From Jannaschia aquimarina (GTDB lineage Bacteria; Pseudomonadota; Alphaproteobacteria; Rhodobacterales; Rhodobacteraceae), in the NCBI RefSeq assembly GCF_000877395.1, contig NZ_JYFE01000013.1, positions 1 through 53,623 of the forward strand: a DNA stretch of 53,623 nucleotides. The letters run 5' to 3'. The notes under the pieces were generated by a model. That model saw nothing but the letters and a program-made list of their open reading frames with translations, was not told the DNA's origin and searched no databases. A program made the translations under genes and the position numbers. Positions 491 to 53,583 of the stretch are shown one piece after another; positions within the stretch are counted from its first letter, which is position 1, and each line of letters starts with the position of its first letter.

Positions 491-531
491 GTGCAGACGG
501 GGGGTGCACGGGGGGTGCACGGGGGGTGCAC
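491..531 (-). repeat. Phased GTGCAC/C-run repeat array, copy A
   Basis: Three GTGCAC palindromes lie at 504-509, 515-520 and 526-531, exactly 11 bp apart. On the minus strand each is followed by CCCCC, and the array ends with GTCTGCAC (491-498). It lies in the gap between the HemJ-like gene and the exported-protein gene, about 110 bp upstream of the latter, with the C-rich strand equal to its coding strand. Related arrays occur at 34006 and 53532. Confidence 0.85.
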
Positions 532-33876: not shown

Positions 33877-33963
33877 GCGGCTGTGGCGGAATTGGTAGAC
33901 GCGCAGCGTTGAGGTCGCTGTGGGGTAACTCCCGTGGAAGTTCGAGTCTTCTCAGCCGCACCA
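33877..33963 (+). tRNA. tRNA-Leu (anticodon GAG)
   Basis: 87 nt including an encoded CCA. The acceptor stem pairs GCGGCTG (33877-33883) with CAGCCGC (33953-33959), then discriminator A and CCA. The anticodon stem CAGCG/CGCTG holds the loop TTGAGGT, with anticodon GAG at 33911-33913. A long variable arm (GGGGTAACTCCC) and the T-loop GTTCGAGTC confirm a class II leucine tRNA. It reads CUC and CUU codons. Confidence 0.96.
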
Positions 33964-34005: not shown

Positions 34006-34074
34006 GTGCACCCCCTGTGCACCCCCTGTACACCCCCCGTGCAGACAATCGTGCAGACAATCGTGCAGACAGGG
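34006..34074 (+). repeat. Phased GTGCAC/C-run repeat array, copy B
   Basis: GTGCAC units start at 34006 and 34017, a GTACAC variant at 34028 and GTGCAG at 34039, all exactly 11 bp apart and separated by runs of five or six C. Two 12-bp steps of GTGCAGACAATC follow (34039 and 34051), and the last GTGCAGACAGGG begins at 34063. The array starts 42 bp after tRNA-Leu and ends 6 bp before the glycerate kinase ATG, so its last unit overlaps the ribosome-binding region. Confidence 0.9.
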
Positions 34075-53531: not shown

Positions 53532-53583
53532 GTGCACCCCCCGTGCACCCCCTGTGCACCCCCCGTCTGCACGATCGGCAGAC
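53532..53583 (+). repeat. Phased GTGCAC/C-run repeat array, copy C
   Basis: GTGCAC units start at 53532, 53543 and 53554, exactly 11 bp apart, with C-runs between them. GTCTGCAC follows at 53565-53572, as at the end of array A. The last unit opens an inverted repeat GTCTGC/GCAGAC (53565-53570 and 53578-53583). It lies 23 bp after the ABC-F stop; the next gene is outside the window. Confidence 0.88.

Follow-up and report, generated by a model that had tools for sequence, protein, structure and literature searches.

The stretch of DNA analysed here (hereafter the window, 53,623 nucleotides of Jannaschia aquimarina) carries three short arrays in which a six-base unit recurs in 11-bp steps, and these arrays belong to a larger set that extends over the genome and over a number of other Rhodobacteraceae. 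The explanation that we consider reasonably likely as a whole is that such arrays would be dispersed binding sites for a small, autoregulated ribbon-helix-helix (RHH) protein whose gene lies at another place in that genome, and that they would serve the organisation of the chromosome more than the control of single genes. The arrays, their period, their distribution, the linked gene and the co-variation of the repeated word with a protein strand all come directly from computation. In related bacteria the protein seems to be retained while the DNA word is another, which looks like joint evolution of the two. A family of unexplained and patchy intergenic arrays is tied in this way to one small protein of unstudied type, and its partial recognition code is now directly testable.

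Phased Arrays in the Window and in the Genome

The three arrays of the window are laid out as follows.

491..531, minus strand: array A, three GTGCAC units in 11-bp steps (531, 520 and 509, read on the minus strand), with the end unit GTCTGCAC at 498-491; intergenic, downstream of the 579-989 gene (minus strand) according to our own simple gene calls
34006..34046, plus strand: core of array B, GTGCAC, GTGCAC and GTACAC at 11 bp, then GTGCAGAC at 34039
34051..34070, plus strand: tail of array B, two more GTGCAGAC units (34051 and 34063), with 12-bp spacing
53532..53572, plus strand: array C, GTGCAC three times in 11-bp steps, with the end unit GTCTGCAC at 53565-53572

All three are intergenic according to the same gene calls, and the C-rich strand is the minus strand in array A and the plus strand in arrays B and C. 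Array B starts 42 bp past a tRNA-Leu(GAG) gene (33877-33963) and array C lies 23 bp past the end of an ABC-type ATPase gene. In each array the end units, either GTCTGCAC or GTGCAGAC, keep the 11-bp register of the GTGCAC units. The preliminary description of this DNA had GTGCAC repeated at exactly 11 bp, which is correct for the core units; in array B, the third unit is GTACAC and the last two GTGCAGAC units are set at 12 bp, a kind of tail that was seen after none of the other arrays listed from this genome. The last unit of array B had also been thought to overlap the start of the glycerate kinase gene, but it ends 10 bp before the probable ATG (34081) of this DUF4147/MOFRL (glycerate kinase-type) gene. 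Allowing one mismatch, GTGCACCCCC occurs 13 times in the window vs 6.24 expected, a count reached in 0 of 100 shuffles. An Rfam scan of the window at the gathering threshold returned the tRNA-Leu alone and no other RNA family. The tRNA gene that precedes glycerate kinase is tRNA-Leu(GAG) here and tRNA-Leu(TAG) in all five other Jannaschia loci scanned, and near the glycerate kinase gene of one Jannaschia genome ARAGORN predicts a tmRNA gene (L217:3148-3479) marked with an asterisk, which presumably denotes the permuted type.

Searching the whole genome with a two-unit pattern returned 135 sites vs 2 for the reversed pattern with up to two mismatches, and 125 vs 0 with up to one, so that the three phased arrays are real, lie where they had been described and form part of a genome-wide set. 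The fixed period also holds: in 1.0 Mb of this genome, chosen around arrays, GTRCAC pairs number 190 at a lag of 11, 87 at 22 and 10 at 33, with 2, 4 and 7 pairs at lags 12, 23 and 24, respectively, and none at lags 7-10 and 13-21. This 1.0 Mb and the window together contain 57 listed arrays (under the counting rule applied, 45 with three units, 10 with two and 2 with four), of which 55 overlap no called gene, in keeping with the non-coding setting first proposed. To the right of many of these arrays, and also at positions 1-33 of the window, stands a hairpin-forming repeat rich in GC, GGATCGGACGGGGC...GCCCCGTCCGATCC, after which a stretch resembling GCGGGRRTATTTG and then GAAGAAG are often present. 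Contigs often end at this repeat, and 16 of the 57 arrays lie at most 600 bp from a contig end.

Conserved Features Across Rhodobacteraceae

With the spacers left free (GTRCAC-N5-GTRCAC-N5-GTRCA), a search of 296 Rhodobacteraceae genomes gave matches in 27 of them (27 of 295 genera), with up to 103 matches each, and 2 matches in total for the reversed pattern. At least 113 array stretches were found among named genomes, including those of Jannaschia, Nioella, Leisingera, Tateyamaria, Roseovarius, Sulfitobacter, Planktomarina, Cypionkella and Heliomarina. Spacers between GTRCAC units differ across genomes (CCCCY, AACCC, AGGGC, CGGCT or AGCCC). Since the C-runs change while GTRCAC and the 11-bp step stay, neither C-runs nor quadruplexes are the conserved feature; what is conserved is the six-base unit and its 11-bp phase. 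One three-unit match also occurs in GC-rich DNA of an IMG/VR viral contig (L204:1163-1189), by chance or possibly as part of a phage of such hosts. Among the open-licence PMC papers listed in topic searches, no title or opening of an abstract seems to describe the element.

These comparisons bear on the idea that the arrays function as a nucleic-acid structure, be it a quadruplex, an RNA hairpin or a C-rich Rho site. The runs of five to six G on the G-rich strand in the Jannaschia genome would suit such a structure. However, C-runs are absent from most listed arrays of five other genomes (G288, G303, G295, G262 and G111), both orientations relative to transcription are about equally common, and the GTMTGG and GTCTTCC words that take the place of GTRCAC in other genomes (see below) could not form the same structure. 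This reading can thus be largely excluded, and quadruplex folding, raised in the preliminary description, was dropped as a conserved feature because the C-runs are not kept. A Rho/rut site or another RNA element of the 3'-UTR, considered as all three arrays of the window lie just past a gene end, was set aside in view of the lack of a clear strand bias among the 57 arrays of this genome.

A Candidate RHH Protein Linked to the Arrays

By comparing array-adjacent genes across genera, we found several recurring neighbours, one of which encodes the candidate protein (in L039 and in the Nioella nitratireducens locus L105); in the Jannaschia genome of the window its gene is G000:C6:35717-36112 (L039:10717-11130). 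Its product, 138 aa long in L039, matches PF14384 (BrnA_antitoxin) with 39.0 bits in L039 and 49.3 bits in L105, for a cut-off of 26.1, and all six proteins scanned are above this Pfam cut-off (29.6-49.3 bits). We take the PF14384 family to have the RHH fold. AlphaFold models of two of the proteins (mean pLDDT 84.2 and 83.8) contain helices at residues 62-70 and 75-96, preceded in the monomer by an unassigned stretch where the strand is expected, with no strand assigned. Foldseek with either model returned no RHH structure match, and comparison of PDB sequences with the A1 profile returned no RHH chain up to an E value of 1; the assignment of the fold hence rests on the Pfam match and the helix pattern. 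NtrC- or OmpR/PhoB-type sites, another candidate reading, were dropped upon finding this gene.

Searching the 296 genomes with the A1 profile identified an RHH match (E≤1e-6) in 101 of them. Such a match is present in 20 of the 27 genomes with GTRCAC arrays vs 81 of the 269 others (P 1.7e-5), a link that is somewhat favoured by the RHH gene's own array being counted among the arrays. Seven array genomes have no match among the candidates scored, at most 13 per genome (G089, G170, G244, G253, G256, G262 and G313), and in 81 genomes the match is found without a GTRCAC array. Within Jannaschia, the eight genomes with array matches are the same eight that have a GTRCAC array upstream of the RHH gene, and of the twelve genomes without array matches, four lack an RHH match, seven have a different word and one shows none clearly. 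Among 113 loci fetched for their arrays alone, six include the RHH gene (three from Nioella and one each from Planktomarina, Roseovarius and Leisingera).

An array on the same strand stands upstream of the RHH gene in the genome of the window and in seven loci of the Nioella group, including those of two N. nitratireducens paralogues. In these seven loci, the array is located about 80-120 bp before the start, while DNA identity to the query ranges from 69 to 95% and spacers and flanks drift. By coordinates, an array also lies upstream of the RHH gene in G274, G077, G315, G306, G111, G221, G216, G295, G030, G008, G014 and G001. The presence of an array before its own gene suggests that the RHH protein would bind there as well and is quite likely autoregulated. 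Regarding the relation to BrnA, the antitoxin of the BrnTA type II toxin-antitoxin systems, the RHH region shares the sequence match above the cut-off in all six proteins, but, unlike in BrnTA, no BrnT toxin gene was matched among nine neighbours scanned and, in all 35 loci measured, 100 bp or more separate the RHH gene from its upstream neighbour, so that the gene is not part of an evident toxin-antitoxin pair. GTTAA or TTAAC is present within 130 bp before the start in 41 of 49 RHH upstream regions (L299-L347) vs 18 of 591 control genes, which include operon-internal ones. This motif resembles the CtrA half-site, and it may be an element of that kind or of a promoter; cell-cycle control of the RHH gene is thus possible.

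Position Relative to Genes and Spacing on the Chromosome

Of the gaps that bear arrays in the Jannaschia genome, 32 are tandem, 5 divergent and 4 convergent (n=41), vs 158, 101 and 43, respectively, among other gaps of 100 bp or longer. In eight further genomes, 56 of 60 arrays are intergenic, 28 of them in tandem, 21 in convergent and 7 in divergent gaps vs 46, 8 and 35 among other gaps. Divergent gaps are thus depleted both there (7/56 vs 35/89, P 6e-4) and in the Jannaschia genome (5/41 vs 101/302). Convergent gaps are enriched in the eight genomes (21/56 vs 8/89, P 7e-5), an enrichment which is absent in the Jannaschia genome (4/41 vs 43/302).

An alternative is that the RHH protein is an ordinary multi-site transcription regulator, acting on a regulon as a repressor or as a roadblock at 3' ends or promoters. 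In its favour, the RHH gene is preceded by an array that has the look of an operator for autoregulation, arrays in tandem gaps are often found soon past a stop codon (19 of 28 are nearer to the preceding stop codon in the eight genomes), and in the first 40 clusters some families of array-flanking genes turn up again in two or three genera, which would fit a regulon. Several observations stand against it. The strand of the array has no clear bias with respect to transcription (in tandem gaps, 19 of 32 for the Jannaschia genome and 12 of 22 for other genera, where six further arrays made of GTGCAC alone have no defined strand and are outside the 22), divergent promoter gaps are avoided, and in the 18 other Jannaschia genomes where glycerate kinase has a close orthologue, the 400 bp upstream of it contain no GTRCAC pair (G008 has distant homologues only). 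Control of glycerate kinase was rejected on this last result, and the role for the next gene, raised in the preliminary description, was not supported. We hence regard a regulon as unlikely; most likely, the arrays are not a mark of particular genes and not regulators of glycerate kinase.

The arrays are also seldom close together. The 44 strong arrays that G008 has on its 3.25-Mb contig leave 1 gap below 20 kb vs 10.2 expected (P <5e-5), or 2 vs 11.6 (P 1e-4) when three weak single-hit sites are added. For 100 of the 104 matches on the single contig of G199, the corresponding values are 4 vs 9.95 (P 0.01), with a smallest gap of 12.3 kb (P 0.0008), and among the matches listed for G358 they are 6 vs 10.4 (P 0.02), the shortest of 26 gaps, taken from eight contigs whose length is known, being 9.1 kb (P 0.0004). 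In the Jannaschia genome the smallest gap is 10.0 kb, a weak result once arrays at contig ends are dropped (P 0.02). Smallest gaps fall within 9-13 kb across four genomes. The null model behind these comparisons is uniform and blind to gene layout, and thinned match lists should not create evenness. The largest array-free stretches seem to lie near GC-skew maxima in G199 and G008, which is a weak lead from 20-point samples that are too noisy to place ori or ter.

A structural role of the arrays in the chromosome is, in our judgement, evenly poised. Species that expanded the arrays carry tens of them per genome, in intergenic DNA, away from divergent promoters and seldom close together. According to this proposal, the dispersed arrays would nucleate the RHH protein, as a site-specific nucleoid protein, at sites that organise the chromosome, and would most likely work in the manner of CdbA (see below). 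The sites of Noc, SlmA and MatP, each kind bound by one chromosome-organising protein, are likewise short sites dispersed in tens of copies, but they are single palindromes, whereas the arrays described here are phased direct repeats. A closer parallel in features is CdbA of Myxococcus xanthus, reported as an RHH nucleoid-associated protein that recognises a GC-rich direct repeat separated by four bp, with its DNA-binding regions one helical turn apart, at more than 500 ChIP-seq sites enriched in intergenic DNA, and whose depletion has minor effects on transcription (PMC7156744). As described there, CdbA shares with the present system the direct repeat, the helical turn between units (11 bp here) and the many sites (here tens per genome). 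Unlike CdbA in that description, the arrays reported here have three to five near-perfect units, number in the tens per genome and rarely neighbour each other closely, include one before the protein's own gene and change their unit word between genera. Abundant and patchily distributed sets of short intergenic direct repeats have also been reported in marine Beggiatoaceae, where one genome contains 169 intergenic sets of TAACTGA (PMC4679880). This heptamer, unlike the phased arrays, stood out above all immediately before start codons, and it was suggested that it might act post-transcriptionally; the term ribbon-helix-helix is absent from the main text of that paper (PMC4679880).

Other Words and a Partial Recognition Code

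In many genomes that carry the RHH gene and lack GTRCAC arrays, the region upstream of the gene contains 11-bp arrays of other words, namely GTMTGGY, GTCTTCC, GTTCATGC, ATGCACA, GTATGAC, GGGTGATC, GTGTTACGGC or GTCTGC; no clear word array was seen upstream of the gene in some others, such as G352, G139 and G010. A period of 11 scores best in 37 of the 49 regions upstream of RHH genes (GTRCAC types included) vs 24 of 400 control genes, and the period score is at least 0.7 in 26 of 49 vs 6 of 587 controls.

The words read before the RHH gene allowed dispersed arrays to be predicted. GTMTGG was read solely from RHH upstream regions, mainly those of G175, G199, G214, G296 and G078, and at least five GTMTGG pairs were then found in 10 of the 296 genomes, all ten having the RHH gene: G175 (105 pairs), G199 (104), G106 (61), G296 (45), G166 (42), G112 (23), G140 (17), G214 (12), G078 (8) and G132 (5). 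For the five genomes outside the reading of the word (G106, G112, G132, G140 and G166), the link to the RHH gene has a P value of 0.004. At least one pair is present in 69 genomes, single matches being at the level of the reversed control, and the Jannaschia genome of the window has none. A further prediction of this kind failed for G015, whose RHH word is GGGTGAT: 200 kb contained 0 GGGTGA pairs, about 3 being expected at the density of G008, and some lineages may therefore use the autoregulatory site alone.

The word also co-varies with the protein. At position 1 of the strand predicted to read DNA, the residue is R in 20 of 20 genes with a CA-type word and K in 15 of 17 genes with a TG-type word, 10 of the 47 rows being unclassed (two H-type, two GTCTTCC types and six without a clear or classable word). 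When the prediction was noted beforehand and new genes were then fetched, R was found in 13 of 13 and K in 4 of 5, so that 17 of the 18 genes open to the test agreed. Left out were G288, whose frame is broken, and G166b, for which there was no prediction. A pair of the expected word is present upstream of 18 of 19 held-out genes (not G108) and the opposite word upstream of none; the exceptions to the R/K rule are G109, G174 and the held-out G132. The P values of 1.5e-8 and 0.0016 are too optimistic, as related genomes are not independent and the word classes were set by eye. Word and strand residue thus co-vary as a partial recognition code, in which the strand would presumably read the DNA.

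This co-variation and an 11-bp register that outlasts changes of the unit both argue for the same-face, cooperative protein-binding array suggested in the preliminary description. Three to five units would be occupied cooperatively, on one face of the DNA, by RHH dimers or higher assemblies at intervals of one helical turn, and we consider it very likely that the RHH protein would physically bind the arrays. The preliminary reading was in this sense right in part, as the protein-binding array gained support while the quadruplex and the role for the next gene did not.

Could the arrays instead belong to a dispersed repeat, mobile or REP-like, that multiplied through copying and is spaced by target immunity or by chance? 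Their high copy number and patchy distribution would be expected of such an element, as would the hairpin repeat often found to their right and the arrays close to contig ends. Nevertheless, units and phase stay constant whereas spacers vary, even inside a single genome as well as from one genome to another, the array persists at the Nioella RHH locus where DNA identity drops to 69-76%, the word tracks the putative DNA-reading strand of a protein, and no linked transposase was noticed in an unsystematic look. Such an origin is hence very improbable, and binding sites of the RHH protein remain the reading that we favour.

Extending this favoured reading to the family as a whole, we would tentatively propose, with slightly less than even confidence, that Rhodobacteraceae possess a system for organising the chromosome, in which one RHH protein acts with tens of well-spaced arrays phased at 11 bp. 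Its word would have been re-coded via changes in the strand, not just from genus to genus but also among paralogues of a single genome, implying that genome-wide sites and protein change together, and the arrays would have undergone several expansions from a single autoregulatory site. If the chromosome role is true, these bacteria would offer a natural series of species in which genome-wide sites and their binding protein were re-coded together, a way to ask how dispersed sites get rewritten without loss of function, and an added class of nucleoid proteins for Rhodobacteraceae.

Some Jannaschia genomes have two RHH paralogues with separate upstream words, as in G005 (L329/L347), G003 (L330/L346) and G006 (L334/L345). 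The words are paired as GTRCAC with GTCTGC or as GTACAC with GGGTGA, as if two codes coexist.
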